From NCBI RefSeq assembly GCF_000378245.1, contig NZ_KB899518.1, positions 1 through 34,955 on the forward strand: a DNA stretch of 34,955 nucleotides. The letters are read 5' to 3'. Source of the stretch: Aromatoleum toluclasticum ATCC 700605. GTDB taxonomy: Bacteria > Pseudomonadota > Gammaproteobacteria > Burkholderiales > Rhodocyclaceae. The position numbers and the translations under genes are program-made. Shown in pieces: positions 6,836 through 28,110 of this stretch (position 1 is the stretch's first letter; the number at the start of each line of letters is the position of its first letter). Below the pieces are notes generated by a model, which saw only the letters and a list, made by a program, of their open reading frames with translations, was not told the DNA's origin and did no database searches.

Positions 6836-8050
6836 ATGCCGCATGACAAGAACCTCGCCCATTGGCACGAGCCCGCCGGCAACCGCAAGGCCGGCTTCGG
6901 CAAGTTCAGGAAGCAGCCGACGCCGTACGACTCGTTCATGGAGTCGGAGGGGATTCCGGTGTTTCGCGACATCGGCATCAGCAAGGTGCAGAACCTGCCG
7001 CTCGTGCCGTGGAAGCGCACCGGCGGCCGCGGTCACTTCATCCAGCTGTACGGCACCGAGACGAAGTGGGGCTGCTACGTCGTAGAGGTGCCGCCGGGCG
7101 ACGCGCTGAACCCCGAAAAGCACATGTACGAGGAAATCTTCCTCGTCGTCGAAGGGCGCGGCACGACCGAGGTCTGGCTCGAAGGCGACGGCCGCAAGCA
7201 CGTCTTCGAATGGCAGCAGGGCTCGATGTTCTCGATCCCGATGAACGCCTGGCACCGCATCGTCAACGCGACCTCGGGCGGCGCGCTGCTGCTCGCCGGC
7301 ACGACGGCGCCGAACGTGCTGAACCAGCTCAACAACGTCGCGGCGGTGTTCGACAACCCGTTCGTGTTCCGCGACCGCTTCAGCGGCGCCGACGACTTCT
7401 ACAAGCCGAACGACGACATCGAGACGGATCCGGTCCGCGGGCTCGCGATGCGCCGCACGAACTTCATTCCCGACATCGCGCGCTGCGATCTGCCGCTCGA
7501 CAACCGCCGCTCGCCGGGTTATCGGCGGGTCGAGCCGTTCATGACGAACAACTGTTTCTACTACTGGATCGGCGAGCACGAGAACGGCCGCTACTCGAAG
7601 GCGCATGCGCACACGTCGGCCGCGGTGCTGATCTGCGTGACGGGCAAGGGCTACACCTACACCTGGCCCGAGCAGCTCGGCGTCAATCCGTGGCAGGACG
7701 GCAAGGCCGACGAAGTGCGCCGCCTCGACTACGAGCCGGTCGGTCTGGTCACTGCGGCGCCGGGCGGCGCGCGCTGGTACCACCAGCATTTCGGCGTTGG
7801 CGAGGAAGGGTTCCGGCTCACCGCGTGGTTCGGCCCGCACAACCCGGGGCGCGACCCCGGCGCGCCCGGCGCCGAGCATACGGACTACACGGCGATCGAC
7901 GTCAATGAGGGCGGCACCGCGATTCCGTACTGGCTCGAGGATCCGTACATCCGCGACGAGTACGAGCGCACGCTGAAGAACGCCGGCATCGCGAGCCGCA
8001 TGGACCCGGCGTGGTACGTGCGGCCGGCCGACGCGGTCGGCGGGAAGTAG
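6836..8050 (+). CDS. Bicupin protein (bicupin A)
   Basis: A 404-aa cytoplasmic protein with two cupin barrels. The N-terminal barrel has EKHMYEEIF then a Gly-rich turn and WHRIVN: His96 and His140 are present, but the first His of the classic HxH is Glu, so its metal site looks degenerate. The C-terminal barrel has His257 and His259 in AHAHTS and His316/His318 in HQHF, the better metal-binding candidate. The layout resembles gentisate dioxygenase or oxalate-decarboxylase-type bicupins, but key features of neither are clear. I do not assign a reaction. ATG 6836 follows GGGAGAACG. The eutA-like gene starts 37 bases later, and an operator-like palindrome lies upstream. Bicupins of this kind recur at 15547 and 24361. 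Confidence 0.82.
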   Translation: MPHDKNLAHWHEPAGNRKAGFGKFRKQPTPYDSFMESEGIPVFRDIGISKVQNLPLVPWKRTGGRGHFIQLYGTETKWGCYVVEVPPGDALNPEKHMYEEIFLVVEGRGTTEVWLEGDGRKHVFEWQQGSMFSIPMNAWHRIVNATSGGALLLAGTTAPNVLNQLNNVAAVFDNPFVFRDRFSGADDFYKPNDDIETDPVRGLAMRRTNFIPDIARCDLPLDNRRSPGYRRVEPFMTNNCFYYWIGEHENGRYSKAHAHTSAAVLICVTGKGYTYTWPEQLGVNPWQDGKADEVRRLDYEPVGLVTAAPGGARWYHQHFGVGEEGFRLTAWFGPHNPGRDPGAPGAEHTDYTAIDVNEGGTAIPYWLEDPYIRDEYERTLKNAGIASRMDPAWYVRPADAVGGK

Positions 8051-8087
8051 GCGAGCCCGGTCGGCATCCCCAGGGGAGGCGTTCAGC

Positions 8088-9641
8088 ATGCGCGATCCGG
8101 CGGGCGGCAGGGTGTTCTTCAGCAGCGTCAGGCGCAGCCTCGAAGTCGAGGATGAGATCCGGCTGCTCAGCGTCGGCGTCGACATCGGCTCGTCGACGTC
8201 GCACCTGGCGTTCTCGCGTCTCGTGCTCGAACGGCTCGACAACCGCTACGTCGTCGCAGAGCGCTCGATCGTCTACGAGTCGGCGGTGCTGCTGACGCCC
8301 TACGCCGACGACATGACGATCGACGCACTCGAGCTCGGCTGCTTCATCCGGCGCCAATATGCGCTCGCGGGCATCGAGCCGTCGGCGATCGACACCGGCG
8401 CGCTGATCCTGACCGGCGTCGCGGTGCGGCGGCACAACGCGCGTGCGATCGGCGAGCTCTTCGCCTCGCAGGCGGGCAAGTTCGTGTCGGTCAGCGCCGG
8501 CGATGCGCTCGAGACGACGCTCGCGGCATACGGCTCCGGCGCAGTCGCGCGCTCGATCCGCGACGGCGTGCGGGTCATGAACGTCGATATCGGCGGCGGG
8601 ACGTCGAAGATCGCGGTCTGCGAGGCCGGTGCGGTCGTCGACCTGACGGCGATCGACGTCGGCGCGCGCATCGTTGCGTTCGACGACGAAGGGCGCGTGC
8701 GGCGCATCGAGGAGGCCGGCCGGCGCTTCGCGAGCGAGGCGGGCCTCGTGCTCGAGCTCGGCGAGCGGGTCGATCCTGCGGGGCTGCAGCGGATGGTCGA
8801 GATCATGGCCGACCGGCTCTTCGAGGCGATGAACGGCGCCGCGGCGAGCGCCGGAACCTCGCGCCTGCTGCGCCTCGCGCCGCTCGCGCCCGGGCGCGGA
8901 CCGGACGTCGTGACGTTTTCCGGCGGCGTGTCCGAATACGTCTACCGGCGCGAGAGCAGCTCGTATGGCGACCTCGGCGCAGCGCTCGCGGAGGCGGTGT
9001 TGCGGCGGGTCGATGCGTGGGGGCCGCGCATCGCGAGCCCCGACGAAGGCATCCGCGCGACCGTCGTCGGCGCCTCGCAATACACCGTCCAGGTCAGCGG
9101 CGGCACGATCTTCGTCGCGCCCGCCGACACGCTGCCACTGAGGAACGTGCCGGTCGTCGTGCCGGGCCTGCCGCTCGACGACGAGGTGCTCGATGCCGAT
9201 TCGATCGCCGACGCGACGCGGCGCTCGCTGTGCCGGCTCGAGCTCGACGACGGCAGCCGCGCTGTCGCGATCTGCTATCGCTGGCGCGGCTCGGCGACCT
9301 TCGGCCGGCTCGATGCGTTCTGTCGCGGCCTGCTCGCCGGGCTCGCGCCGCTCATCGACGGCGGCCTGCCGCTGATCCTGGTCGGCGACGGGGACGTCGG
9401 CGGCCTCGTCGGCATCCATTGCTGCGAGGAATTGCGCGTGCCGAACCCGGTCGTCTCGATCGACGGGATCTCCGTCGCCGAGTTCGATTTCATCGACATC
9501 GGCGCGCTGCTCGAAACTTCGGGCGCGGTGCCGGTGGTGGTGAAATCGCTGGTGTTTCCGGCGTCGAGCGCGCTCGGTCGTCCGCCGGAGGCCGGCGCGC
9601 ATGCCGAACGGTCCGCTACGTTGGGGACGGCGCCGGCATGA
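8088..9641 (+). CDS. eutA: EutA-like ASKHA ATPase (copy 1)
   Basis: The 517-aa product aligns by eye along its whole length with E. coli EutA, the ATPase that reactivates adenosylcobalamin-dependent ethanolamine ammonia-lyase. The actin-fold signatures are intact: phosphate-1 loop VGVDIGSSTS (Asp32 to Thr37), phosphate-2 NVDIGGGTSK (from Asn165), and the adenosine motif FSGGVSEYVY (from Phe277). The late ATVVGASQYTVQVSG and FIDIG...VPVVVKSLVFP segments also match EutA. No eutB, eutC or microcompartment gene is nearby, so the client is unlikely to be ethanolamine ammonia-lyase. It lies between a bicupin and a hydrolase whose start overlaps its stop (ATGA). The symbol marks family, not proven function. 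Confidence 0.85.
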   Translation: MRDPAGGRVFFSSVRRSLEVEDEIRLLSVGVDIGSSTSHLAFSRLVLERLDNRYVVAERSIVYESAVLLTPYADDMTIDALELGCFIRRQYALAGIEPSAIDTGALILTGVAVRRHNARAIGELFASQAGKFVSVSAGDALETTLAAYGSGAVARSIRDGVRVMNVDIGGGTSKIAVCEAGAVVDLTAIDVGARIVAFDDEGRVRRIEEAGRRFASEAGLVLELGERVDPAGLQRMVEIMADRLFEAMNGAAASAGTSRLLRLAPLAPGRGPDVVTFSGGVSEYVYRRESSSYGDLGAALAEAVLRRVDAWGPRIASPDEGIRATVVGASQYTVQVSGGTIFVAPADTLPLRNVPVVVPGLPLDDEVLDADSIADATRRSLCRLELDDGSRAVAICYRWRGSATFGRLDAFCRGLLAGLAPLIDGGLPLILVGDGDVGGLVGIHCCEELRVPNPVVSIDGISVAEFDFIDIGALLETSGAVPVVVKSLVFPASSALGRPPEAGAHAERSATLGTAPA

Positions 9642-10642
9642 GCTGGGACAGCGTGCCCGCATCGCCGGCCGTCGCGCTGTATCCGCCGGTCGCGTCGCAC
9701 GACGCGGGCTTCCTGGATGTCGGCGACGGCCATCGGATCCACTGGGAGGTCGGCGGCAACCCGCTCGGGCGGCCGGCCCTGTACCTGCATGGCGGACCGG
9801 GCGGCGCGGTGACGGCCGACGCGCGGCGCTTCTTCGACCCGGCGCGCTATCGCATCGTGCTGTTCGATCAGCGCGGCTGCGGGCGCTCCGAGCCGCGCGA
9901 CCGGCTCGAGGCGAACACGACCGCGCACCTGATCGGCGACATCGAAAAACTACGCGAGGCGCTGGCGATCGACCGGTGGCTGGTGTTCGGCGGCTCGTGG
10001 GGCGCGACGCTCGCGCTCGCGTACGCGCAGCGCTATCCGGCGAGGGTCGCCGCGCTGGTGCTGCGCGCGGTGTTCCTCGGCCTGCAGCGCGAGCTCGACT
10101 GGCTGTATGCGCACGGCGCGTCGCAGCGCTTTCCCGACGCCTGGGAACGATTCGTCGCGCCGATTCCCGCGCACGAACGCGACGAGCTCGTCGGCGCCTA
10201 CCACCGTCGCGTCGTGAGCGCCGATCCCGCGGTCGCACTGCCGGCGGCGCGTGCATGGTGCGCCTGGGAGGATGTGCTGATCGCCGGTGGGCCTGCCGAC
10301 GCCGCCGACGCCGCCGACGCCGCCGACGACGCCGGTGACGCTGCGCTGCTGACGCGCGCGCGGATCGAGACCCACTATCTCGTCCATCGCGCCTTCCTCG
10401 AAGAAGGCGAGCTGCTTGCGGGCGCCCATCGCCTCGCGGGCATTCCCGGTGTCGTCGTGCAGGGCAGCGCCGACGCCGTGACACCGCCGGCCTCCGCGTG
10501 GGCGCTGTGCCGCACGTGGCTCGCCGCGACGCTCGTTGTCGTCCCCGGCGAAGGCCATTCGTCGAGCGAGCCCGGCATCCAGCGTTCGCTCGTCGCTGCG
10601 ACCGACCGGTTTTGCAGTGCCGACGGCAGGAACCACATATGA
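9638..10642 (+). CDS. Proline iminopeptidase-like alpha/beta hydrolase (S33)
   Basis: A 334-aa cytoplasmic alpha/beta hydrolase. The oxyanion-hole motif LHGGPGG, the nucleophile elbow GGSWG (Ser120), Asp279 in QGSADAV and His307 in GEGHSS form a complete catalytic triad in the order expected for peptidase family S33 (prolyl aminopeptidase). Such enzymes remove N-terminal proline, but relatives hydrolyse other amides and esters. The start overlaps the eutA-like stop by four bases, so the two are translated together. A low-complexity insertion coded by 9-bp repeats (10295-10330, Ala-Ala-Asp units) sits in the cap-domain region and may vary in length. A role in processing an amide or ester intermediate is possible but not shown. 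Confidence 0.85.
   Translation: MSWDSVPASPAVALYPPVASHDAGFLDVGDGHRIHWEVGGNPLGRPALYLHGGPGGAVTADARRFFDPARYRIVLFDQRGCGRSEPRDRLEANTTAHLIGDIEKLREALAIDRWLVFGGSWGATLALAYAQRYPARVAALVLRAVFLGLQRELDWLYAHGASQRFPDAWERFVAPIPAHERDELVGAYHRRVVSADPAVALPAARAWCAWEDVLIAGGPADAADAADAADDAGDAALLTRARIETHYLVHRAFLEEGELLAGAHRLAGIPGVVVQGSADAVTPPASAWALCRTWLAATLVVVPGEGHSSSEPGIQRSLVAATDRFCSADGRNHI
10295..10330 (+). repeat. In-frame 9-bp tandem repeat inside the S33 hydrolase gene
   Basis: Three copies of GCCGCCGAC plus partial units code Ala-Ala-Asp repeats. The 9-bp unit keeps frame, so slippage would change only the length of an acidic linker. Confidence 0.8.
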
Positions 10643-10661
10643 AAGCGCCGATTAATAACAA

Positions 10662-10723
10662 CCGTTCGCCCTGAGCCTGTCGAAGGGCGGGTGGCAGAGC
10701 TTCGACAGGCTCAGCCCGAACGG
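10662..10723. repeat. Inverted repeat, REP-like dispersed element
   Basis: A 24-base arm (10662-10685) is matched in inverted orientation at 10700-10723 with two mismatches and a 14-base loop. The core CTTCGACAGGCTCAG is a well-known small dispersed repeat of many proteobacterial genomes. It lies between the hydrolase and the next binding-protein gene and may act as a transcription stop or mRNA stabiliser. Confidence 0.8.
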
Positions 10724-10766
10724 CAGTTGGTTGCCGGGTTAATTGGCATTACCGGAGGAGCAAAAG

Positions 10767-11822
10767 ATGAGCTGGCTTGGAGAATGCAAAATCTGGTCGC
10801 GCGTCGCGGTGATGGCCGCGCTCGCGTGGGCGACGGCCGCCGGCGCGCAGTCGGGCGCGCCGAACGAAGCGATCTACATGTACCGCGGTGACGATCGCGT
10901 GGCGCGCCTCGTCGACAAGGCGAAGGAGGAAGGCAAGCTCGTGCTGTATACGTCGCTCGCGACGACCGAGTCGATCCCGCTGACGCAGGCGTTCGAGAAG
11001 AAATACGGCATCAAGGTCGAAATGTGGCGTGCGGTCAGCGAGAAAGTCGTGCAGCGGACCGTGGCCGAGGCGCAAGGCAAGCGCTTCGCGGTCGACGTCA
11101 TCGAGACGAACGGCCCCGAGCTCGAGATGCTGACGCGCGAAAAGCTGCTGTCGGAGTTCTACAGCCCGTATCTCGCCGATCTGCCGGCGTCCGCGTTGCC
11201 GGCGCATCGGCAGTGGGTGTCGGACCGCGTGAATTTCTTCGTCGTCGCGTACAACACGACGAAAGTGCGACGCGACGAGCTGCCGCGCACCTACGAAGGT
11301 TTCGCCGATCCGAAATGGAAGGGGCGGATCGGCATCGAAGCCACCGACCATGAGTGGCTCGCGACCGTCGTCAAGCATTGGGGCAAGGACAAGGGCATGG
11401 CGTTCTTCCGCCGGCTGGCGGACCTGAAGCCGGACGTGCGCAAGGGGCACACGCTGTTGTCCGAGCTCGTCGCCGCGGGCGAGGTGCCGGTCGGGCTGAC
11501 CGTCTACAACACCTACGCGGAATCGATGAAGCGTCGCGGCGGGCCGGTCGACTGGGTGCCGGTCGAGCCGGTCGTCGGGCGTCCGCAAGGGGTCGCGGTC
11601 GCGCGTAACGCGCCGCACCCGCACGCGGCGCTGCTGTTCGCCGACTTCCTGCTGTCGCCCGAAGGGCAGGAGCTGTTCAGCTCGATGGGGCGCGTGCCGG
11701 TGAGCCGCAAGGTCAAGACCGAGCTCAACGACTTCACCTACACGATGGTCGATCCCGCGACCGTGCTCGACGAGGCGCAGGTGTGGGAAAAAACGTGGAA
11801 CGAGCTGTTCCTGGGGCAATGA
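10767..11822 (+). CDS. COG1840-type ABC substrate-binding protein (copy 1)
   Basis: Periplasmic binding protein (351 aa) of the ferric-type extracellular solute-binding family. ATG 10767 follows CCGGAGGAG and gives a signal peptide ending near GAQS; an in-frame TTG eight codons earlier would sit upstream of the ribosome-binding site. Family segments include GKLVLYTSLATTES, FEKKYGIKVEMWR and DPKWKGRIGIE. In FbpA-type iron binders two adjacent tyrosines hold Fe3+; the aligned place here reads VYNTYAES (around Asn248), so the Tyr pair is not kept. An organic ligand is therefore more likely than iron. There is no permease or ATPase beside it; the only matching pair in the window is at 20120-23025. 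Confidence 0.82.
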   Translation: MSWLGECKIWSRVAVMAALAWATAAGAQSGAPNEAIYMYRGDDRVARLVDKAKEEGKLVLYTSLATTESIPLTQAFEKKYGIKVEMWRAVSEKVVQRTVAEAQGKRFAVDVIETNGPELEMLTREKLLSEFYSPYLADLPASALPAHRQWVSDRVNFFVVAYNTTKVRRDELPRTYEGFADPKWKGRIGIEATDHEWLATVVKHWGKDKGMAFFRRLADLKPDVRKGHTLLSELVAAGEVPVGLTVYNTYAESMKRRGGPVDWVPVEPVVGRPQGVAVARNAPHPHAALLFADFLLSPEGQELFSSMGRVPVSRKVKTELNDFTYTMVDPATVLDEAQVWEKTWNELFLGQ

Positions 11823-11873
11823 GACCGGCGTGCCGATCGCTTCGGCGCGCAATTCTGGAAAGGGTGCAATCAA

Positions 11874-12674
11874 ATGGACACATTGCCGCATGAAATGCTC
11901 GGGCTGACCGTCGTGGTTTTTCTGCTCGGGTTGAAGCACGGCATGGACCCCGATCATCTGGCGACGATCGATGGGCTGACGCGATTCAACCTGCGAACGA
12001 AGCCGCGCCTGTCACGCTGGTCCGGGTTCCTGTTCTCGCTCGGTCACGGCGTCGTCGTGACCGCGGTCGCGGCGGCCGTCGCGGTCGCGGCACAGCAGTG
12101 GTCGGCGCCCGATTGGCTCGAGGACGTCGGCGCGTGGATCTCGATCCTGTTCCTGCTCGGTCTCGGCAGCGCGAACCTGTGGGCGGTGTTCCAGGCGCCG
12201 TGCGGCGAGGTCGTGCGCCCGGTCGGGCTCAAGGGGCGCCTACTCGGGCGCCTCGGCGAGGCGAGCCACCCGGTCGTCATCGCCTTCGTCGGCGCCGCGT
12301 TCGCGCTGTCGTTCGACACGCTGAGCCAGGCGGCGCTGTTCTCGCTGACGGCGTCGTCGCTCGCCGGCTGGCTCTATTCGGCGGCGCTCGGCGTCGTGTT
12401 CATGTTCGGCATGATGGTCACCGACGGCGTCAACGGCTTGTGGATCGCACGGCTCCTGCTGGCCGCGGACCGGCGCGCGCTGATCGTCTCGCGCGTCATG
12501 GGGCTCGTCATCGCGTTCCTGAGCCTCGGCATCGCCTTGCTGGGCATCGCCAGATATTTCGTACCGACGGTGGCCACCCTCGTCGAGGGCGCCGGCATTG
12601 CGATCACCGCGGCCTTGCTGGCGATGCTGTTCGTGAGCTTCAGGCTCGCGATCCGGCTGTCGAAGCCGGCCTAG
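11874..12674 (+). CDS. Nickel/cobalt permease, NiCoT (HoxN/NixA) family
   Basis: A 266-aa inner-membrane protein with 6-8 hydrophobic segments. The second-helix signature of NiCoT transporters is recognisable as LKHGMDPDHLATID (His22, Asp25, Asp27 and His28). Further family segments are FSLGHGVVV, LSFDTLSQAALF (usually LGFDTATE) and FGMMVTDGVNGLW. It should import Ni2+ or Co2+ at low concentration. It is 51 bases after a binding-protein gene and upstream of an IclR regulator and a His-rich EutA-like protein. Cobalt supply for a B12 enzyme, or nickel/cobalt for the cupins, are both reasonable inferences. The departures from the family consensus make the metal uncertain. Confidence 0.8.
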   Translation: MDTLPHEMLGLTVVVFLLGLKHGMDPDHLATIDGLTRFNLRTKPRLSRWSGFLFSLGHGVVVTAVAAAVAVAAQQWSAPDWLEDVGAWISILFLLGLGSANLWAVFQAPCGEVVRPVGLKGRLLGRLGEASHPVVIAFVGAAFALSFDTLSQAALFSLTASSLAGWLYSAALGVVFMFGMMVTDGVNGLWIARLLLAADRRALIVSRVMGLVIAFLSLGIALLGIARYFVPTVATLVEGAGIAITAALLAMLFVSFRLAIRLSKPA

Positions 12675-12720
12675 GAGGCGGGCCGGTTATTACGCTGCGT
12701 CCGGCGACTGGTAGGATGTG

Positions 12721-12756
12721 TTCCGTATATGAGGATGGAGTTCTGATACATGGAAC
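12721..12756. promoter_or_regulatory. IclR-type operator-like sites at the iclR start (site J)
   Basis: GTTCTG-ATACA-TGGAAC at 12740-12756 fits the recurring palindrome and covers the ATG of the IclR gene (12750). A half-site TTCCGTATATG lies about 20 bp upstream (12721-12731), two helical turns away. The arrangement suggests autorepression. Confidence 0.5.
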
Positions 12757-13547
12757 ACAACACGAAACGTGCGCGGAAGGACGATTCCGACAAGCGGCTG
12801 TCGTCGGTCGCCAATGCGATACGCCTGCTGAAGGCGTTTTCGGACGACGACTACGAGATCGGCATCACGCAGCTCGCGCGGCAGCTGCAGCTCGCGAAAA
12901 GCACGGTGCACCGGCTCGCGTCGACGCTGATCGAGGCGGGCATGCTCGAACAGAACACCGAGAGCGGCAGGTACCGGCTGGGGCTCGCCGTCTTCGAGCT
13001 CGGCGCGCTCGTGCGGCGCCGCATGGACTATTCGACCGAGGCGCGGCCGTATTTGATGAAACTGCGCGAGCAGAGCGGCGAGACGGTGCACCTGGCGATC
13101 CGCGACGAGGCGGCGATCGTCTACATCAACTATCTGGAAAGCCGCCAGGCGATCCGCATGAGCACCGAACTCGGCATGCGCAAGCCGGCGCACTGCACGG
13201 CGGAGGGCAAGGCGCTGCTGGCCTTCCAGCCGGAAGAGGTGGTCGGGCGTCTGATCGACGGAGGGCTCGTCGCGCGCACGCCGAAGACGACGACCACGCC
13301 CGCCGCGCTGCGCAAGGAGCTGGCGGCGGTGCGCTCGCGCGGCTACGCGACCGACAACGAGGAGTGCGAGCTCGGCATGCGCTGCATCGCCGCGCCTGTG
13401 CGTGACCATGGTGGGGCGGTGATCGCGGCCGTGGGGGTCGCCGGTCCGACGCAGCGATTGACGAAGAAGAAGCTTGCCGCGCTCGCGCCTGAGGTGATCG
13501 GCGCCGCGGCAGCGGTTTCGCAGCGGCTCGGCTACGTGCCGCGCTGA
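12750..13547 (+). CDS. IclR-family transcriptional regulator (1)
   Basis: A 265-aa regulator with the two IclR domains. The N-terminal winged helix-turn-helix is about residues 18-80 (VANAIRLLKAF, then ITQLARQLQLAKSTVHRLAS). The C-terminal ligand-binding domain begins about residue 95 and contains HLAIRDEAAIVYI and the ECELGMRCIAAPV signature. IclR proteins bind short palindromes and respond to small aromatic or organic acids. An operator-like palindrome overlaps its own start codon, so it probably controls itself. It may be one of the proteins that read the shared TCCR-N5-YGGA sites; a second IclR gene is at 33159-33953. Confidence 0.9.
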   Translation: MEHNTKRARKDDSDKRLSSVANAIRLLKAFSDDDYEIGITQLARQLQLAKSTVHRLASTLIEAGMLEQNTESGRYRLGLAVFELGALVRRRMDYSTEARPYLMKLREQSGETVHLAIRDEAAIVYINYLESRQAIRMSTELGMRKPAHCTAEGKALLAFQPEEVVGRLIDGGLVARTPKTTTTPAALRKELAAVRSRGYATDNEECELGMRCIAAPVRDHGGAVIAAVGVAGPTQRLTKKKLAALAPEVIGAAAAVSQRLGYVPR

Positions 13548-13621
13548 GGCCGCATCGATCGCGTCGTCGGTCCGTGCAGTTCCGGCGCCCAATGTCGGCG
13601 GGCGTGGATACCTTCCCATGC

Positions 13622-13654
13622 GGCGGAATGCGCCTACGGCTTTCTCGCCCTACG
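13622..13654. repeat. Dispersed 33-bp repeat, copy 1
   Basis: This 33-base element ends in CGCCCTACG. Its reverse complement recurs at 15426-15458 with about four mismatches, so the two copies face each other across the second eutA-like gene. The flanking interval 13548-13742 holds no convincing gene. Confidence 0.65.
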
Positions 13655-13742
13655 GCGCCGCTCAATCCATGGTGCATGGCGCTTGAACTCGGATAACAGT
13701 ATCTACGGTCTGCACAGTTTTCAACGAACGGAGGGTAGTCCA

Positions 13743-15401
13743 GTGAGCGACGAAGAGCGCGACGCACGATGGACCCATCGGCTCGCCGATCACCTGTACG
13801 GCGAGGATTTCGACCACCATCACGACGAAGGCGGGGACCACGACCACGATCACGACCACCTCGGCGCGGACGGGCTCGACGCGCACGACGCGATGTGGCA
13901 GCAGGATCACGTCGCGCTCGTCAGCGTCGGCATCGACATCGGCTCGTCGGGCACGCAGGTGATCTTTTCGCGGATCGCGCTGCGCCGGCTTGCCGAGGAG
14001 CTGTCGAGCCGCTACGTCGTCGTGGCGCGCGACGCGCTCTATCAGTCGCCGATCACGCTGACGCCGTACCAGAGCGCCGAGCGCATCGACGAGGCGGCGC
14101 TCGGCGCGATCATCGACGAAGCCTATGCGGCGGCGCGGCTGCATCCCGACGACGTCGATACCGGCGTCGTGATCCTGACCGGCGAGGCGCTGCGGCGCGA
14201 CAACGCCGAAGCAATCGCCGGCGTGCTCGCCGAGACCGGCGGCGAGTTCGTCTGCGCGACCGCCGGCCACCACATGGAGGCGAAGCTTGCCGCGTACGGG
14301 TCGGGCGCGGTCGCCGCGTCACGCGACGGCGCAAGGCGCATCCTCAACGTCGACATCGGCGGCGGCACGACGAAGCTCGCGCTCGTCGACAGTGGCCGGA
14401 TCCTCGCGACGGCGGCGCTGCACATCGGCGGGCGGCTGCAGGTCGTCGACGAGGCGCAGCGCATCCTGCGGCTCGATCCGGCCGGCGAGCGGCTCGCCGT
14501 CGAGGCGGGCTACGCGTGGCAGCTCGGCGCGCGCGCGGAGCGCTCCGACATGTCGCGGGTCGCCGAATCCATGGCGTGCATCGTCCTCGACTCGATTGTC
14601 GGACCGCCGTCGCCGGGCTACGTCGAACGCTTCTATCTGACCGAGCGGCTGCCGGACCTCGGCGCGCTCGACGGCGTGATGTTCTCCGGCGGCGTCGGCG
14701 AGTACGTGTATCGACGCGAGCGGCGCGATTTCGGCGACATGGGGCTGCTGCTCGGCGCCGCGCTGCGGCATCGGCTCGACACCGGCGCGGTGCCGTGGCC
14801 GCTGCTGCCGCCGGGCGAATGCATCCGCGCGACCGCGCTGGGCGCGTCCGAATACACCGTGCAGCTGAGCGGCAACACCCTCTACATCTCCGATCCGCGC
14901 GAGCTGCTGCCGCGCCGGAACCTGCAGGTTCTGCAGCCCGCGTGCGATTTCGGCGACGCGATCGATCCGGAGCGCGTCGCGCGTGAAATCCGCGCGCATT
15001 TCGCGGCCTTCGATCTCGAAGAGGGCGAACGCGAAGTCGCGCTCGCGCTGCGCTGGCGCGGCGCACCGTCGTATGCGCGCGTGTCGGCGCTCGCCGCGGG
15101 GATCGTGCGCGGCCTCGCGAACACGGTCGCGCGGCGGCTGCCGATCTACCTGATCCTCGACGGCGACGTCGCGCAGACGCTCGGGGCCCTGCTGCGCGAT
15201 GAGCTCAGCGTCGCGAGCGAGGTGCTCGCGATCGACGGCGTCGTGCTGTGGGATTTCGACTACATCGACCTCGGCCGCATCCGGATGCCGTCGCAGACGG
15301 TGCCGGTGACGATCAAGTCGTTGGTATTCAACGAGGCGCCGCAGGCGGCGACGCGACCGCACCGCCATCCGCATCGTCACCCCTATCGACCGAGGGGCTG
15401 A
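13743..15401 (+). CDS. eutA: EutA-like ASKHA ATPase with His-rich termini (copy 2)
   Basis: The 552-aa product starts at GTG 13743, seven bases after GGAGGG; an in-frame TTG at 13683 lacks such a site. The EutA core is complete: VGIDIGSSGTQVIFSR (from Asp65), NVDIGGGTTKLAL (from Asn202), FSGGVGEYVYRRE and VPVTIKSLVFN. Compared with E. coli EutA it carries an added N-terminal region with HHHDEGGDHDHDHDH (residues 25-39) and a C-terminal HRHPHRHPYR tail. Both look like metal-binding or metal-storage tracts, similar to those on nickel and cobalt chaperones. It follows a NiCoT permease and an IclR gene, but unlike the other two copies it has no bicupin in its own operon; the nearest one (15547-16629) converges on it. 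Function as an ATP-driven reactivase or metal-loading factor is inference. Confidence 0.85.
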   Translation: MSDEERDARWTHRLADHLYGEDFDHHHDEGGDHDHDHDHLGADGLDAHDAMWQQDHVALVSVGIDIGSSGTQVIFSRIALRRLAEELSSRYVVVARDALYQSPITLTPYQSAERIDEAALGAIIDEAYAAARLHPDDVDTGVVILTGEALRRDNAEAIAGVLAETGGEFVCATAGHHMEAKLAAYGSGAVAASRDGARRILNVDIGGGTTKLALVDSGRILATAALHIGGRLQVVDEAQRILRLDPAGERLAVEAGYAWQLGARAERSDMSRVAESMACIVLDSIVGPPSPGYVERFYLTERLPDLGALDGVMFSGGVGEYVYRRERRDFGDMGLLLGAALRHRLDTGAVPWPLLPPGECIRATALGASEYTVQLSGNTLYISDPRELLPRRNLQVLQPACDFGDAIDPERVAREIRAHFAAFDLEEGEREVALALRWRGAPSYARVSALAAGIVRGLANTVARRLPIYLILDGDVAQTLGALLRDELSVASEVLAIDGVVLWDFDYIDLGRIRMPSQTVPVTIKSLVFNEAPQAATRPHRHPHRHPYRPRG

Positions 15402-15425
15402 GCCGGTCAAGGCAAAGGCACGAAC

Positions 15426-15522
15426 CGTAGGGCGGGAAAGCCGAAGGCGCATCCTGCCAACCCACGGTGGAGCGGAGCCCGGCCGCCGCGTGGCGGGAGG
15501 CGCTTCGCTTTCCAGCCCTACG
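15426..15522. repeat. Dispersed repeat copies 2 and 3 forming an inverted repeat
   Basis: CGTAGGGCGGGAAAGC (15426-15441) is matched inversely by GCTTTCCAGCCCTACG (15507-15522) with one mismatch, and similarity extends inward through GCGC-rich bases. The left unit (15426-15458) is the reverse complement of the 13622-13654 element. It fills the gap between two converging genes and could terminate transcription from both sides. Confidence 0.7.
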
Positions 15523-15546
15523 AATGCCGGTCCAGCCCCTGGAGTG

Positions 15547-16629
15547 CTACAAGAACGCCGACATCCGCACCGTGACGCCCGCTTTGCGTGTCGCTTCCTC
15601 GTACATCTGTTGGACGCGCGGATTCTGGTCGGCATATTCGATCTGGTCGCCGCCGTTCTTGAGGCTCGTCGACACGCCGCCGAACAGCGACTTGCGTTTG
15701 CTTTCGGTGAAGGGGTAGCGCAGGCTGCCGTACGCGGTTGCGAGGTAGCGCGCCGGCTCCGGGCACGCGTTGAAATGCTGGTGGAACATCTGGTCCGGCG
15801 GCGCGAAGACCGTGCCGTGCTGCCAGTCGACGCGGTGGAAGTCGGGCTCGCCGTCGTACCACAGCAGCGAGTAGCCGGTGCCGGTCACGCACATCACGTG
15901 GAAGTCGGCGCCGTGGCGGTGCGCCTTCTTGTAGGTGCCGACCGGCATCTCGGAGATGTGCGCGTGCATCGTGCCGTCGGCGAGGATGAACATGATGTTC
16001 GTGCCGCCGGCGCCGCGGTCGCCCCAGGGCTTGAGCTCGATCGACGCGAGGTCGGGCACGAAGTTCGTTTCCCACATGTGGTTGCCGGGACGCACCGGAA
16101 TGAAGTCGCCTTCGCCGTCGAAATATTTCGCGCTGCCGATGCGCTCGTCGAAGTTGAAGTTGTTCTCGAAGATGAACGCCTCGTTGTGGAACATGTTCAT
16201 GACGGCCGGCAGGCTCGTCGTCGACACCAGCCGCGCGGGCTCCGAGCCGCTGCCGTTGAAGTGGCGGTATTTCGCGTTCAGCGGGATCGCGAACATGCTG
16301 CGCGGCCCCCATTCGAACATGTGCTTGCGGCCGTCGGGCGTCTCGATCGTCGTGCTGCCGCGCCCCGACAGCACATAGACGACTTCCTCGTACAGGTGGC
16401 GCTGCGGCGCGGTCGCTTTCGACGGCGCGATCTCGAGCACGAACATGCTGATGAAGTCGCCGCGCCCCTTCAGGTGCACCGCAGCGCCCTGCGCGTCGAA
16501 GCGTGCCCAGGGCCGAGTCTCGACCTGGAAGAGATCGACCCCGAAATCCTCGGTGATCGGCAGACCCTCCTTCTTCACCCAATCGAGGTAAGAGTCGACC
16601 ATAACCTTCGGTGTAGCGGTGCTGTCCAT
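15547..16629 (-). CDS. Bicupin protein (bicupin B)
   Basis: A 360-aa two-barrel cupin, last gene of the minus-strand operon. The start at 16629 (MDSTATPK) is preceded by AAAAGGAAG. The first barrel has PQRHLYEEVVYVLSG with His78 but no first His of HxH, and YRHFN (His123). The second barrel has His237/His239 in KAHRHG and His283/His285 in MFHQHFN, a plausible metal site. The pattern HQHF in the second barrel is shared with bicupins A and E and with both single cupins, which marks a common family. It lies 26 bases after the eutA-like gene. Dioxygenase, isomerase or decarboxylase activity would all fit the fold; no specific reaction can be named. Confidence 0.82.
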   Translation of the reverse strand: MDSTATPKVMVDSYLDWVKKEGLPITEDFGVDLFQVETRPWARFDAQGAAVHLKGRGDFISMFVLEIAPSKATAPQRHLYEEVVYVLSGRGSTTIETPDGRKHMFEWGPRSMFAIPLNAKYRHFNGSGSEPARLVSTTSLPAVMNMFHNEAFIFENNFNFDERIGSAKYFDGEGDFIPVRPGNHMWETNFVPDLASIELKPWGDRGAGGTNIMFILADGTMHAHISEMPVGTYKKAHRHGADFHVMCVTGTGYSLLWYDGEPDFHRVDWQHGTVFAPPDQMFHQHFNACPEPARYLATAYGSLRYPFTESKRKSLFGGVSTSLKNGGDQIEYADQNPRVQQMYEEATRKAGVTVRMSAFL

Positions 16630-16655
16630 GTTGTCTTCCTTTTCGCTCAGTGAAA

Positions 16656-18281
16656 TCAGTGAATCGAATAACGGGCGCCGGTGTTCGGGCGATCCGCGGG
16701 ATGCGCGCCGTTGCCGCCCGCGAACAGCAACGACTTGATCATGATCGGCACGACGTGGCTCGGCTCGATCACCTCGCCGATGTCGACGAAGTCGAGCTCG
16801 CGCAGTTGGATGCCGTCGATCGACACGATGGGGCGGGCGAGGGCGAGTTCGTGCTCGAGGATGTGGCCGAGCGTCTTGCCGATGTCGCCGTCGCTGATCA
16901 GGATCAGCGGCGCTTCGCATCCGGACGCGCTGCCGATCGCCGCCGCGATGCCTTCGGCGAGATGGCGCAGCCGTATGTAATGCGGATCGCCGCGCCATTT
17001 CAGCGCCACCGCCACCGGTGCGTCCGGCTCGACGTGTGCGCGGGCGAGCGCGGCGGCCACCGCGCTCGTGACCGCCCGGGCGGGCAACGCCCCGTCGGCC
17101 GGCAGCGCGGGGAACAGCACCGGCACGTTGTGGACCGGCAACGCCGCCACCTCAGACAGATGGATCGTCTTGCCGCTGACCTGCATCGAGAACTGCGACG
17201 CGCCGATCACGGTGGCGCGGATGCCCTGCCCCGTGTCGCGCAGCGGCGGCAGGATGCGGTCGGCGCCGAACGCATCGCCGATCCGCTCGGCGAGCGGCCG
17301 GGCGATGTCGCCGAACTGCGCGGTCTCGCGGCCGTAGAGGTATTCCGACACGCCGCCCGAGAACGTGATCATGTCGGGCGCGACCGCACCGGGCAGCGCT
17401 TCGGTCAGCAACAGCCCGCGGGCGAGCCCGGCAGGCGGGCGCTGCCGCAGCATCGAAACCGCGACGTCGGCGAGCGCGGCGACGACGCGATCGAGATCCT
17501 GCAGCGCCGGACACTGCCCCAGACGAAGCTCGATGCCGAGCGCATGCGCGACGATGCGCGCGGCCTCGTCGATGCGCGTGAGCCGGCCCTGCGTATCGAA
17601 CGCGATCAGCCGGCCGCCGACCGCGAACGCGCAGGTGCTCAGGATTTCGCCGTTGCGGATCAGCGCGAGCTTTGTCGTCCCGCCGCCGATATCGACGTTG
17701 AGCACCGTCGCGCCGGCTTCGCGCGAGAGCGCGACCGCGCCGGAGCCGTGGGCGGCGAGCACGCATTCGAGATGGTGCCCGGCCGAGGCGCAGACGAACT
17801 TGCCGGAATCGGCGGCGAAGAGCTCCGCGATCGCCTGCGCGTTGCGTTTCTTGATCGCTTCGCCAGTGAGGATCACCGCGCCGCTGTCGATGTCGGCACG
17901 CGAGACGCCCGCCTGCTGGTAGCAGTCGTCGATGAAGGCGCCGAGCGCCGCCGCGTCGATCGTCTCGTCGGCGAGGAACGGCGTCAGCAGGATCGGCGAG
18001 CGCCACAGCATCTTGCGGTCGACGACGACGAACTGGCTCGACAACAGCTGCGTCTTCCGCTGCAGCCGCACGCGCGAGAACATCAGGTGCGACGTCGAGC
18101 TGCCGATGTCGATGCCGACCGTCGTCAGCTCGACGTTGTCGACTTTCCAGATGAACTCGGTGATCGCGCCGCGCTCGCCGATCGACAGCTCGTGGATGTG
18201 CTCCCCGTCGCCGTCGTGCAGCCTCAGCGCCGGAGCCCCGGCGCTGTCGTGAAGGCGATCCAGGTTGAATGCCCCCGTCAC
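16656..18281 (-). CDS. eutA: EutA-like ASKHA ATPase (copy 3)
   Basis: A 541-aa EutA-family protein. It begins with GTG at 18281, which overlaps the TGA of the upstream binding-protein gene (GTGA), and no good ribosome-binding site is seen, so it relies on translational coupling. An N-terminal extension of about 50 residues (containing HDGDGEHIHE) precedes the actin-fold core: VGIDIGSSTSHLMFSR (from Asp58), NVDIGGGTTKLALI, and FSGGVSEYLYGRE. The late segments ATVIGASQFSMQVSG and FVDIGEV...VPIMIKSLLF also match EutA. Sandwiched between a periplasmic binding protein and a bicupin, it gives the most compact version of the repeated module in this window. Its client enzyme is unknown. Confidence 0.85.
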   Translation of the reverse strand: MTGAFNLDRLHDSAGAPALRLHDGDGEHIHELSIGERGAITEFIWKVDNVELTTVGIDIGSSTSHLMFSRVRLQRKTQLLSSQFVVVDRKMLWRSPILLTPFLADETIDAAALGAFIDDCYQQAGVSRADIDSGAVILTGEAIKKRNAQAIAELFAADSGKFVCASAGHHLECVLAAHGSGAVALSREAGATVLNVDIGGGTTKLALIRNGEILSTCAFAVGGRLIAFDTQGRLTRIDEAARIVAHALGIELRLGQCPALQDLDRVVAALADVAVSMLRQRPPAGLARGLLLTEALPGAVAPDMITFSGGVSEYLYGRETAQFGDIARPLAERIGDAFGADRILPPLRDTGQGIRATVIGASQFSMQVSGKTIHLSEVAALPVHNVPVLFPALPADGALPARAVTSAVAAALARAHVEPDAPVAVALKWRGDPHYIRLRHLAEGIAAAIGSASGCEAPLILISDGDIGKTLGHILEHELALARPIVSIDGIQLRELDFVDIGEVIEPSHVVPIMIKSLLFAGGNGAHPADRPNTGARYSIH

Positions 18282-19345
18282 GGCGCGGCCCGCTTCGTGA
18301 CGACGTCTTCGTAGGTCTTCAGCCATTTCTCGTTCATGTCGAGCGCGAGCGCCGGATCGATGAACTTCAGCGGCTGGCGCGCGAGCGGCGCGTCGATCTT
18401 GCGGCTCGTCGGCACGTAGTTGCGGCTGAACGAGATCTGCTGCGCTTCGCCCAGCATGTAGTCGTAGAAGAGCAGCGCCGCGTGCGGGTGCGGCGAGGTC
18501 TTCAGCACGCCGACGCTGCGCAGCTGCGCGACGATCGGCTGCATGACGAACCAGTCGATCGCCGCCCCTTTCTGCTTCAGCTGCTCGGGCTTGTTGTTGT
18601 AGATCGTCAGGCCCAGCGGCACTTCGCCGGCCGCGACGAGGTTCGTCAGCAGCGTGTGGCCCTTGCGCACCGACAGGCCGTTGGTCGCGACGAGCTCCTT
18701 GAACAGCTTGTGCGTGGCCTCCTCGCCGAGCTCCTGCGCGAGCGCCGCGAACCACGCCTGGTCGTCGGACTCGATGCCGAGCCGGCCCTTCCATTTCGGG
18801 TCGAGCAGGTCGTGGAACGTCTTCGGCAGATCCTCCTTGCGGATCTTCTCGGTGTTGTAGGCCTGCACGAAGACGTCGAGCGTGTGGCCGGCCCACTCGC
18901 CGTGCGCCGGCACCGCCTGCGGCATCAGGTCGGCGAACTGGGGCGAGCGCACGCGCTGCAGCAGTTTTTCGCGGTGCAGCGCTTCCATCTCGGGCGCATT
19001 GTTCTCGACGACGTCGGCTTCGAAGCGCCCGGCGCGGGTTTCGCTGACGACGCGCCGCAGCACGTTCTCGGAGCTCGAACGCCACAGCTTCACCTTGATG
19101 CCGTACTTCCTGCTGAACGCATCGACGATCGGCGCGATGTCCTCGCCGGTCATCGATTCGTAGACGACGAGCTCGCCTTCCTTCTTCGCGCCGTCGACGA
19201 GCCGCTGCTGCCGGCTCGGACCTTCGAGCTGCGCGATTTCGGCGATCGCGCCGTCGGACGGCGCCGGCTGCGCGAACGCGGCTTGCGACATGGGTAACGC
19301 GAGCAGCGACCAAACGAGATACGAGCTGCGGAATAGGCGGTTCAT
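18278..19345 (-). CDS. COG1840-type ABC substrate-binding protein (copy 2)
   Basis: A 355-aa secreted binding protein, first gene of the minus-strand operon. It has a clear signal peptide (MNRLFRSSYLVWSLLALPMS, cleavage near AFAQ) and GAGGAG upstream of the ATG. Family segments include GELVVYESMTGED, FSRKYGIKVKLWR and DPKWKGRLGIE. At the position of the FbpA iron-binding tyrosine pair it reads IYNNKPEQ, so ferric iron is unlikely to be the ligand. It is transcribed away from the permease/ATPase pair at 20120-23025 across a shared control region, and probably delivers to that pair. Confidence 0.83.
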   Translation of the reverse strand: MNRLFRSSYLVWSLLALPMSQAAFAQPAPSDGAIAEIAQLEGPSRQQRLVDGAKKEGELVVYESMTGEDIAPIVDAFSRKYGIKVKLWRSSSENVLRRVVSETRAGRFEADVVENNAPEMEALHREKLLQRVRSPQFADLMPQAVPAHGEWAGHTLDVFVQAYNTEKIRKEDLPKTFHDLLDPKWKGRLGIESDDQAWFAALAQELGEEATHKLFKELVATNGLSVRKGHTLLTNLVAAGEVPLGLTIYNNKPEQLKQKGAAIDWFVMQPIVAQLRSVGVLKTSPHPHAALLFYDYMLGEAQQISFSRNYVPTSRKIDAPLARQPLKFIDPALALDMNEKWLKTYEDVVTKRAAP

Positions 19346-20048: not shown

Positions 20049-20119
20049 AAGAACGAAGCGCGCGAAGGGCGCGGTGGCCGGGAGACCGGTCCCGTCGCTC
20101 TCAACAAGGAGGAGTCGTG

Positions 20120-21868
20120 ATGGAGATCGTCGATCAACGGTCCGTTGTGCTCAGCGAAAAGCCGCCGCTGCCCTGGCAACGGATCGACCTGAAATGGATC
20201 ATCATCGGCTTGTCGGTCGTGGTGGTCGCGTACCTCGGGCTGGTGCCGTTGGGCTTCCTGATCTGGCAGAGCTTCTTCACGCCGCAGACCGCGGCGAAGG
20301 CGGCGCAGTTCACGCTGGGAAACTACGGCACCGCCTACACGAGCGTCGAGACGCTGCGGTTGTTCCTGACGTCGCTGAAGTTCTCGCTCGGCACGGCGGT
20401 GTTCGCGTTCATTACCGGCACGACCTTGGCATGGATGAACGAGCGGACGAACACGCCGTTCAAGAACCTGTTCTTCGCGCTGTCGATCATTCCGCTGATC
20501 ATTCCCGGCATTCTCTTCACGGTCGCCTGGATCCTGCTCGCGAGCCCCAAGATCGGCCTCTTGAATCTCGCGCTGCAAAGCTGGTTCCAGACCGATTACG
20601 TGTTCTTCAACGTCTATTCGATCTGGGGAATGATCTGGGTCGAAGGCCTGCACTACTCGCCGATGGCGTTCCTGATCATGACGGCGGCGTTCCGGTCGAT
20701 GGACCCGTCGCTCGAGGAGTCGGCGCTGATGAGCGGCGCGAGCGTGTTCCAGGTCGCCTGGCATGTGACCTTGAAACTCGCATGGCCGGCGATCTTCGCG
20801 ACGCTGCTGATCCTGTTCATCCGCGCGATCGAATCGTTCGAGGTGCCCGCGCTGATCGGGCTTCCCGTCGGCATCCACGTCTTCACGTCGTCGATCTATC
20901 AGGCGATCCACCAGTATCCGAGCAACGTCGGGCTTGCGTCCGCGTATGCGGTGACGCTGCTGCTGATCACGACGGTCGCGGTGTATTTCCAGTCGCGCCT
21001 GTCGGGCAAGGGCAGCAAGTACTCGACGATGACCGGCAAGGGCTTCCGTCCGCGGCCGATGGATCTGGGCAAGTGGCGATATCTGACGGCCGGCATGTTC
21101 ATCCTGTATTTCGCGATGATCGTCGCGCTGCCGTTCCTGGTGCTGCTGTGGTCGTCGTTCCAGAAGTTCTACAGCGTGCCGTCGGTCGACGCGCTCAAGA
21201 CGCTGACGTTCGACGCGTATCGCTTCGTGCTCGGCTATCCGACGCTCATCGATTCGGTGTGGAACAGCGTCGTGCTGGCGTTCGCGTCGGCGACCTTGAT
21301 CATGCTGCTGACTTCGGTGATCTGCTGGATCGTCGTCAAGACCAAGATCCCCGGGCGCTGGCTGCTCGACAACCTCGCGTCGCTGCCGATGGTCTTCCCG
21401 GGCCTGGTGCTGGGCCTCGCGGTGATGGTGTTCTACCTCAACGCCGACATCGGTATCTACGGCACGCTGTGGATCATGCTGCTCGCGTACGTCACGCGCT
21501 TCATGCCGTACGGCCTGCGCTACTGCACGACCTCGATGATGCAGATCCACAAGGAGCTCGAGGAATCGGCGTCGATGAGCGGCGCGTCATGGGCGACGAA
21601 CTTCCGCCGCATCATCCTGCCGCTGTTGAAGCCCGGCCTCCTCGCCGGCTGGATCTACATCGTCATCGTGTCGATCCGCGAGCTGTCGACCTCGATCCTG
21701 CTCTACAGCCCGGGCACCGAAGTCGTCTCGATCGTCGTCTGGGAGCTGTGGGAGAACGGGCAGTACGTCGAGCTCTCGGCGCTCGGCGTGATGTTCATCG
21801 TCGCGCTGTTCGCGCTGGTCCTGTTCGCGCAGTGGCTGGGCAGGCGGTTCGGCGTCAAGGAGATGTGA
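20120..21868 (+). CDS. Ferric-type ABC transporter permease, fused two-domain
   Basis: A 582-aa inner-membrane protein with about 12 hydrophobic segments, the fused FbpB/AfuB-type architecture. Each half has its EAA-type loop for docking the ATPase: EESALMSGASVFQVAWHV near the middle of the first half and EESASMSGASWATNFRRI in the second. ATG 20120 is chosen over the adjacent in-frame GTG 20117 because it is better spaced from AAGGAGG. It is the only permease of this class in the window, while four binding proteins of the matching class are present. It heads an operon with the ATPase and three cupin genes. The cargo is probably an organic acid rather than iron. Confidence 0.9.
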   Translation: MEIVDQRSVVLSEKPPLPWQRIDLKWIIIGLSVVVVAYLGLVPLGFLIWQSFFTPQTAAKAAQFTLGNYGTAYTSVETLRLFLTSLKFSLGTAVFAFITGTTLAWMNERTNTPFKNLFFALSIIPLIIPGILFTVAWILLASPKIGLLNLALQSWFQTDYVFFNVYSIWGMIWVEGLHYSPMAFLIMTAAFRSMDPSLEESALMSGASVFQVAWHVTLKLAWPAIFATLLILFIRAIESFEVPALIGLPVGIHVFTSSIYQAIHQYPSNVGLASAYAVTLLLITTVAVYFQSRLSGKGSKYSTMTGKGFRPRPMDLGKWRYLTAGMFILYFAMIVALPFLVLLWSSFQKFYSVPSVDALKTLTFDAYRFVLGYPTLIDSVWNSVVLAFASATLIMLLTSVICWIVVKTKIPGRWLLDNLASLPMVFPGLVLGLAVMVFYLNADIGIYGTLWIMLLAYVTRFMPYGLRYCTTSMMQIHKELEESASMSGASWATNFRRIILPLLKPGLLAGWIYIVIVSIRELSTSILLYSPGTEVVSIVVWELWENGQYVELSALGVMFIVALFALVLFAQWLGRRFGVKEM

Positions 21869-21909
21869 CAGGAAGGAAGCCCTGCAATAGAAACGGCCAG
21901 GAGAAAAGG

Positions 21910-23061: not shown

Positions 23062-23643
23062 ATGAACGAACCGAGAACGGGCGGTGACGGAGCGGCGTCG
23101 CCCGACGCCACCGAGTCCCACTATCACAGCAAGAAGGACCGGGTGTTCGTGCGCGCGATCGCCGGCCCGTACAACCTCAACGACGAACTCACGCGGCTGC
23201 GCGCGCAGCCGCGCGTGCGCAAGGGCTCCGAGATCAAGTTCCGCGACGGCCCGCAGACCTTCAGCCGCCACTACATGGAGCCGAAGGACGGCCTCACCCA
23301 GACCTTCCACATCCATCTCGAGGAATACGCGCCGGGCGGCAAGTCGCAGAAGCACGGGCATGTGAACGAGGCGGCGTTCTACATCCTCGACGGCCGCGGC
23401 TACGAGATCCACGACGGCGTGCGCTACGACTGGCAGGCGGGCGACATCGCGATCGTGCACAACAACTGCGTGCATCAGCACTTCAACGCCGATCCCGAGA
23501 AGCCGGCGCGCGCGCTCGTGATCAAGACCAAGCCGATGTACATGTTCATGAACATGCTGTTCCAGAAGATGGTCGAGCCGCGGCCGACGACGCCGGCGCC
23601 CGGGGCCGAGGGCTACCGCGTGCGCGAGCGGGAAGAGGACTGA
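23062..23643 (+). CDS. Single-domain cupin protein (cupin C)
   Basis: A 193-aa protein with one cupin barrel. The canonical metal ligands are complete: His98 and His100 in KHGH, Glu103 in NEAAFYILDGRG, and His138 (VHQHFN). A strong AAGGAGGAACC precedes the ATG. It follows the ABC ATPase by 36 bases in the same operon. The intact 3-His-1-Glu set supports a real metalloenzyme (Fe, Mn, Ni or Co), for example a dioxygenase or isomerase. The exact reaction is unknown. It shares the HQHFN signature with its neighbours. Confidence 0.85.
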   Translation: MNEPRTGGDGAASPDATESHYHSKKDRVFVRAIAGPYNLNDELTRLRAQPRVRKGSEIKFRDGPQTFSRHYMEPKDGLTQTFHIHLEEYAPGGKSQKHGHVNEAAFYILDGRGYEIHDGVRYDWQAGDIAIVHNNCVHQHFNADPEKPARALVIKTKPMYMFMNMLFQKMVEPRPTTPAPGAEGYRVREREED

Positions 23644-28069: not shown

Positions 28070-28110
28070 CCGAAAAACGAAGCCGGACCGATGCGAAAGG
28101 AGGAAGACCG

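Follow-up and report, generated by a model that had tools for sequence, protein, structure and literature searches.

EutA-like ATPases paired with bicupins and their possible role in loading metal into cupin enzymes

The stretch of Aromatoleum toluclasticum DNA analysed here, referred to as the window, comprises all 34,955 nucleotides of bases 1-34955 of contig C28 in a genome of 5.9 Mb in 46 contigs, and encodes three ATPases of the EutA family (EutA1, EutA2 and EutA3) together with three bicupins (A, B and C). EutA restores inactivated ethanolamine ammonia-lyase by an ATP-dependent exchange of the damaged cofactor. In our analysis the window ATPases fall in a clade apart from the EutA proteins that are linked to the lyase genes eutB and eutC (EutBC), members of this clade are paired with cupins subclade by subclade, and EutB and EutC are missing from the genome. 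We consider it probable (roughly 0.6) that the EutA-like proteins use ATP to load metal into, or to reactivate, bicupin metalloenzymes of aromatic-acid catabolism, and do not serve ethanolamine ammonia-lyase.

A preliminary description of this DNA had recognised three intact EutA-family ATPases between 8088 and 18281, and all three give full-length PF06277 matches of 371.7-398 bits (cut-off 27) without internal stops. EutA1 (8088..9641, +, 517 aa) matches over 8163-9557 with 371.7 bits, EutA2 (13743..15401, +, 552 aa from the chosen GTG) over 13917-15332 with 398 bits, and EutA3 (16656..18281, -, GTG start) over 16722-18131 with 394.2 bits. The single further match in the genome, on contig C1, is partial and scores 28.7 bits. 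Identity to EutA1 is 41 and 43% for the other two ATPases, and identity to bicupin A is 33 and 32% for the other two window bicupins, which indicates old paralogues and not recent copies. The nucleotide-binding motifs of the ASKHA proteins are present, and in 37 aligned rows D65-S69, D204, G206-T209 and S315-V318, which include the motifs DIGSS, GGGT and SGGV, are invariant. Foldseek gives an actin-like fold. The EutA2 model has a mean predicted local distance difference test score (pLDDT) of 81.6, falling below 50 at residues 1-49 and 532-552, and its matches are to PPX/GppA and other ASKHA proteins, none of them close (template modelling score, TM, of 0.25-0.34 over the query) and weaker than those of bicupin A. 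A sequence search of the PDB found no significant relative of EutA1. Against the two best-fitting NCBIfam EutA models the window proteins reach 248-326 bits, under the equivalog cut-offs of 598 and 769, the best scores being 316.8-325.9 bits against 598. A weak match of EutA2 to PF01869 (28.5 bits) lies below the cut-off of 31.5.

A maximum-likelihood tree built from 50 trimmed proteins splits 40 cupin-linked rows from 10 EutBC-linked rows with support of 100/100. Judged from these alignments, the clade of the window ATPases is separate from EutBC-linked EutA. Within it EutA1 (18 rows) and EutA2 (15 rows) form subclades supported at 100/100 and EutA3 (6 rows) one supported at 100/95, while a Marinobacter protein (L047) stands outside all three. 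The tree program flags long branches in the EutBC rows; the 50-row tree is without L127, and the divergent L089-L092 were placed in a separate FastTree only. At L047:9977-11485, on a Marinobacter algicola contig, the EutA1 gene lies in two reading frames, either through sequencing error or as a pseudogene. Cupin-linked members occur in Alpha-, Beta- and Gammaproteobacteria and on contigs labelled Acidobacteriota and Chloroflexota, although many sources are metagenome bins and some labels are doubtful. Environmental isolates that carry the module include Noviherbaspirillum humi (L031) and Pusillimonas noertemannii (L018). Three loci titled Bordetella parapertussis, Klebsiella pneumoniae and Microbacterium (L036, L064 and L069) seem a poor fit to the distribution of the module and are possibly mislabelled or contaminated bins.

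Searches of the whole 5.9-Mb genome with PF06751 (EutB) and PF05985 (EutC) gave no match, and both proteins were detected in an E. coli control. The absence of eutB and eutC noted in the preliminary description thus extends to the whole genome, and the client genes do not lie just outside the window. In a tblastn search (E<=1e-8) of 171 fetched loci and the window, EutB turned up in each of the 15 loci whose EutA is of the EutBC type and nowhere else, apart from L144, L170 and L171, which are repeat fetches from these same genomes. Among 397 genomes of a phylum sample, five others match the EutA alignment at E<=1e-30 (G434, G487, G496, G588 and G459), and EutB adjoins EutA in all five. EutB occurs in 94 of the 397, of which just these five have an EutA match at that threshold, so that most genomes with EutB lack such an EutA and it is unusual to find EutA where EutB is missing. 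In the order sample described below, the single strong EutA match outside the cupin-linked group (G297) has EutB or an EutB-EutC fusion beside it. Four genomes of that sample with EutA scores of 150-221 bits (G075, G118, G157 and G254) were considered as a second client-less group and rejected, as an EutB-EutC gene adjoins each. At L170:3501-6719 and L171:3164-5350 EutB and EutC share one reading frame beside a divergent EutA, in a family within the window's order, and a match similar to this single-frame gene occurs in L127/L144.

The neighbourhoods of the EutA-like genes were surveyed in the best 80 of at least 495 matching places, with an EutA1 query used for confirmation, which biases the survey towards EutA1. 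The tallies that follow cover these 80 loci and their second copies, together with L114-L116, the window and an additional set of fetched loci; L085-L092 and L117-L129 (EutBC-type or repeat fetches) and L139-L158 were set aside, L169, from the genome of L050, was kept as a duplicate, and L073/L075/L077 and L060/L068 are near kin. Bicupin A lies within 600 bp of EutA1 in 63 of 89 cases and at 0.6-6 kb in 10, and bicupin C lies within 6 kb in four. All nine EutA3 genes have a bicupin within 600 bp, bicupin B in eight and a nearer bicupin C in one. For EutA2 (n=23) a cupin is found within 600 bp in 11 (bicupin C in five, bicupin A in four, bicupin B in one, a small cupin in one) and within 6 kb in eight more; counted from the locus maps, bicupin C is within 6 kb in 15 of the 23. 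These tallies show pairing by clade, of EutA1 with bicupin A, EutA3 with bicupin B, and EutA2 with bicupin C or small cupins.

In the window itself bicupin A (6836..8050, +, 404 aa) is 37 bp upstream of EutA1, and bicupin B (15547..16629, -, 360 aa) is 26 bp downstream of EutA3, whose GTG start shares a GTGA with the stop codon of the preceding solute-binding protein gene SBP2 (18278..19345, -; PF13416). The 26-bp gap and this overlap mark the minus-strand trio as a tight operon, as had been proposed. It had also been stated that two of the ATPases sit directly beside both a bicupin and a COG1840 binding protein; the bicupin part of this holds, but an alpha/beta hydrolase gene intervenes between EutA1 and SBP1. 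In other loci bicupin B is upstream of EutA3, so that the pair has outlived a rearrangement.

Co-occurrence was also seen at the level of whole genomes, in two order samples that each include their own centre genome; few candidates were scored per genome and the counts ignore kinship. A bicupin A search (E<=1e-15) matches four of 300 genomes (G000, G143, G180 and G293), and EutA-like proteins of 367-407 bits are found in the same four. In the second sample, centred on a Phyllobacterium (G704), the EutA alignment matches six of 249 genomes and a bicupin (profile A2, E<=1e-20) occurs in five only (G704, G783, G886, G897 and G908), all EutA-positive; the sixth EutA-positive genome (G963) has an EutB-linked EutA and no bicupin. 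Of the 80 survey genomes, 50 were searched whole, and each has a bicupin A homologue (E<=1e-20; 1 to 37 matches), including those whose EutA1 locus shows none. The co-occurrence thus recurs in many genomes and is not confined to this one, and the earlier view that the ATPases are not stray EutA homologues is supported.

The AlphaFold model of bicupin A (Pfam Cupin_2, as is bicupin B) has two cupin barrels (pLDDT 87.7), and its best Foldseek matches are bicupins: oxalate decarboxylase, MncA, seed globulins, the gentisate dioxygenase 3bu7 and quercetin dioxygenase. With TM scores of 0.40-0.51 and root-mean-square deviations of 9-15 A, the barrels match and the whole arrangement does not. All 49 rows of the alignment share H257, H259, H316 and H318 in the C-terminal cupin domain, while H140 of the N-terminal domain is not conserved there, which points to the C-terminal domain as the likely metal site, with three histidines in bicupin A by assignment from the cupin motifs. 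The 35 bicupin A rows all have V or I at position 264, where 12 of the 14 bicupin B and C rows carry His, and the site of the latter two may perhaps have four histidines. With two modelled barrels and a conserved predicted histidine site, the bicupins can be placed in the bicupin metalloenzyme superfamily. The best PDB sequence match is 3bu7, at E 1.1e-05 over one stretch of 65 profile positions, and scores of 20-40 bits are far below the 650-bit cut-off of the gentisate/aminosalicylate 1,2-dioxygenase family (NF049978).

Evidence on the metal comes from the ATPases' termini and from neighbouring transport genes. Window EutA2 has the N-terminal stretch DHHHDEGGDHDHDHDH and a C-terminal HRHPHRHP with four histidines, neither of which the preliminary description had mentioned, and both tails are predicted to be disordered. 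A His-rich C-terminal tail is present in 18 of 18 EutA2 rows of a first set and six of six of a second (two genomes are in both), with 6-29 histidines in most and four in the short tail of the window, and a stretch like HEHDG..DHDHDE is found wherever the N-terminus was shown. EutA3 has an N-terminal motif like HDLDFDHEH (HDGDGEHIH in the window). Neither the His-rich tails nor such N-terminal stretches occur in the 25 EutA1 and six EutBC-linked rows compared. The His-rich stretch of a metallochaperone is therefore found in EutA2, as a short motif in EutA3, and not in EutA1.

In the window EutA2 stands behind a NicO-family nickel/cobalt permease (11874..12674, +; PF03824, 56.9 bits) and an IclR-family regulator (12750..13547, +; PF01614 and PF09339), and NicO precedes IclR-EutA2 in L011, L032 and L165 as well. 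NicO is beside EutA2 in L040, NikR is divergent from bicupin A in L031, and NicO and NikR follow EutA1 in the Phyllobacterium loci L060, L068 and L115. In L017, which has both genes, a palindrome ATATGA-N15-TCATAC (L017:7498-7524) lies between NikR and NicO, directly upstream of NicO, and is presumably close to the NikR consensus. It is the one good site overall, and no convincing NikR-like operator was seen in L031 or L115. NikR occurs in 28 of 50 genomes, one copy each, and is inside the locus in four (L017, L031, L060 and L068, the last two near kin), against a chance expectation of about 0.1 of 28 (20 kb of a ~4-Mb genome). The presence of NicO and NikR in some lineages favours nickel, or cobalt, as the metal.

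By analogy with EutA, the ATPase would bind the bicupin and use ATP to hold it open while metal is inserted or spent metal is exchanged. The His-rich tails of EutA2 and the short N-terminal motif of EutA3 would gather or store the metal, which in some lineages would be delivered by the NicO permease, with NikR alongside in some, and would be nickel or cobalt. The clade, the pairing, the co-occurrence, the tails, the predicted fold and the lack of EutBC are observations, whereas physical interaction, ATP dependence, metal transfer, the identity of the metal and the substrate are inferred.

Several observations weigh against this reading. Nine of the 89 EutA1 genes have none of these cupins within 6 kb (three more are cut by a contig end), as do four of the 23 EutA2 genes. 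The four bicupin A genes close to EutA2 belong to divergent neighbouring EutA1 modules, and the one bicupin B is the convergent gene of the window, whose EutA2 has no adjacent co-directional cupin. Some genomes have more bicupin matches than EutA-like genes (37 matches in G716), which leaves some cupins with no ATPase of their own, and an alpha/beta hydrolase, in 35 loci, shows that the cupin is not the sole recurrent neighbour. Since most genomes with EutB lack a matching EutA, the two need not co-occur, which weakens what can be concluded from the absence of EutB alone. The lack of tails in EutA1 means that the tail cannot be essential. NicO or NikR is present in just seven of the 80 survey loci (L011, L017, L031, L032, L040, L060 and L068), which makes the nickel link a minority trait, and the NicO gene of Phyllobacterium converges on EutA1 and hence lies outside the EutA1 operon. 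Fe(II) dioxygenases have a bare three-histidine site, as predicted for bicupin A, more often than nickel cupins do, and an FTR1 iron permease lies nearby in L031; iron is a possible bicupin metal.

The ASKHA fold also includes small-molecule kinases, and the window ATPases, tightly linked to catabolic genes and with distant fold matches to PPX/GppA and other ASKHA proteins, might be pathway kinases or other ATP-dependent enzymes that phosphorylate a substrate or intermediate which the bicupin converts. We regard this as unlikely, given the full-length similarity to a reactivase family; moreover, three subclades with different cupins and varied neighbours would require different substrates, and a kinase has no obvious use for His-rich tails.

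The genes around the module are of the kind expected in aromatic-acid catabolism. They include a LigXa-type Rieske oxygenase, ferredoxin and ferredoxin reductase, class II aldolase-type genes, an amidohydrolase and an RraA-like aldolase, and further thiamine pyrophosphate enzymes, molybdenum hydroxylases, and tripartite, ATP-binding cassette (ABC) and carboxylate transporters. The Rieske oxygenases, ferredoxin reductases, aldolase-type genes, amidohydrolases and carboxylate transporters point to aromatic acids as the probable compounds that the bicupins cleave or convert in some other way. Because such enzymes are nearby, the ATPase could instead activate one of them (a UbiD enzyme, the Rieske oxygenase, the molybdenum hydroxylase or the hydrolase), with the cupin merely in the same pathway. 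When the genes of the loci are clustered, EutA is found in 85 loci and the main bicupin cluster in 70, while the alpha/beta hydrolase reaches 35 loci, the Rieske oxygenase 17 and the molybdenum hydroxylase 10. Apart from the hydrolase, whose 35 loci lend this idea something, the counts run against it, as does the presence of cupins near all three ATPase clades, and we think it quite improbable. The preliminary description had proposed a client other than ethanolamine ammonia-lyase, naming the cupins and UbiD among the candidates. The survey pairing supports the cupins, whereas UbiD, with one match of 45% identity (L008) and two of 24-28% in the 80 loci, is not favoured. The window's own UbiD decarboxylase (2467-4725, UbiD domains ~3163-4725) lies behind an NMT1-type ABC transporter.

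Binding proteins of the COG1840 type had been counted as a defining part of the module. This did not stand: matches to SBP1 or SBP3 at 45% identity or more were found in just 17 of the 80 loci, many of which are cut by contig ends, and as a constant core part they were rejected. They seem to be an accessory, mainly in clusters from Betaproteobacteria. The middle of the window reads, on the plus strand, bicupin A, EutA1, the alpha/beta hydrolase (9641..10642, +, start codon not fixed; PF00561), SBP1 (10743..11822, +; PF13416), NicO, IclR and EutA2, and on the minus strand SBP2, EutA3 and bicupin B. To its left are an NMT1-type binding protein, an ABC ATPase and permease, UbiD, a transposase-like helix-turn-helix gene and a carrier of the major facilitator superfamily (MFS). 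To its right are an ABC permease with two BPD_transp_1 stretches (20117..21868, +; PF00528), which probably serves the binding proteins, and an ABC ATPase with a TOBE domain (21868..23025, +; PF00005 and PF08402), open from 21868 with its true start further in. There follow a single-domain cupin (23062..23643, +; PF07883) of the kind that comes after EutA2 in L086/L167, a second small cupin (23692..24291, +; PF07883), bicupin C (24361..25503, +; PF07883), the cupin type that accompanies EutA2 elsewhere, a porin, SBP3 (26993..28069, +) and SBP4 (28099..29157, +), both of the COG1840 type by domain scan like SBP1 and SBP2, and MFS and EamA carriers.

From its gene content the window looks like a catabolic island, and a mobile island might carry ATPase and bicupin together with no direct interaction between them. 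The patchy distribution (four of 300 and five of 249 genomes), the module's presence on rhizobial plasmids and the transposase-like gene of the window agree with this, but co-transfer alone would not explain pairing that survives a change of gene order and is specific to clades, or co-occurrence where the genes are not adjacent, and we consider it rather unlikely. Least probable of all is that the ATPase, like its homologue EutA, reactivates an unlinked cobalamin-dependent enzyme and that NicO, whose family can carry cobalt, imports it for B12, given the unmatched EutB and EutC, the exact co-occurrence with bicupins in two samples and, weakly since the controls were also silent and other B12 enzymes were not searched, the lack of a diol-dehydratase (PF02286) match in the genome.

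We therefore return to the bicupins as the clients of the EutA-like proteins. A wider proposal, which we advance tentatively and hold to be somewhat less than evenly likely, is of a maturation system in which an EutA-derived ASKHA ATPase puts in or replaces the metal (probably nickel or cobalt) of the bicupin oxygenases or lyases of aromatic catabolism, with ATPase clades dedicated to cupin families and possibly one ATPase serving many paralogues in Chloroflexota (SAR202 and relatives). Two Chloroflexota-labelled genomes, G716 (L084) and G725 (L083), have 37 and 13 bicupin matches (E<=1e-20) with one EutA-like gene per locus, a possible one-ATPase-many-cupins arrangement.

B12 enzymes and radical enzymes have known reactivating ATPases. 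We know of no earlier ATP-driven activase for cupin enzymes, which, to our knowledge, are generally thought to gain their metal unaided. Nickel in cupins is already in print, a nickel quercetinase having reportedly been described (PMC4416304). In the open-access literature searched, which is not all that is in print, no paper was found that joins EutA to cupins outside other contexts; the items mentioning both concern, by title, the Eut microcompartment, ectoine, genome re-annotation and salinity, and no title there names a metallochaperone for cupins. If the proposal is correct, a dedicated ATPase would alter the production and assay of bicupins, might account for recombinant bicupins that are inactive, and could bring a further group of enzymes to those that use nickel or cobalt. 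The label 'ethanolamine ammonia-lyase reactivating factor EutA', as given to such proteins in Phyllobacterium and other bacteria, would then be a misnomer, and the large bicupin sets of Chloroflexota-labelled genomes, with their ATPases, may bear on the breakdown of recalcitrant organic matter.

The window family shares with EutA the full-length profile match, the invariant motifs and the actin-like fold, and differs from it in lacking EutBC in locus and genome, in its separate clade and sub-cut-off NCBIfam scores, in its bicupin partner and in the His-rich tails of one clade. Other ASKHA activases (the 2-hydroxyglutaryl-CoA dehydratase activator, BadF/BcrA and diol dehydratase reactivase) act on radical or B12 enzymes. 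The ATPase fold is common to them and the window family, with Foldseek matches to 1hux and to EutJ (3h1q), but such client enzymes were not seen in general Pfam scans of the window. With the nickel metallochaperones HypB, UreE, CooJ and SlyD, which are His-rich but differ in fold and have hydrogenase, urease or CO dehydrogenase as clients, EutA2 shares His-rich terminal tails, and some loci a nearby nickel transporter or NikR. The window bicupins, finally, resemble dioxygenases of the gentisate/5-aminosalicylate type in their bicupin fold and in a histidine metal site within a cupin domain, and differ from them in the C-terminal position of the conserved site, in the fourth histidine of bicupins B and C and in having an ATPase as partner.

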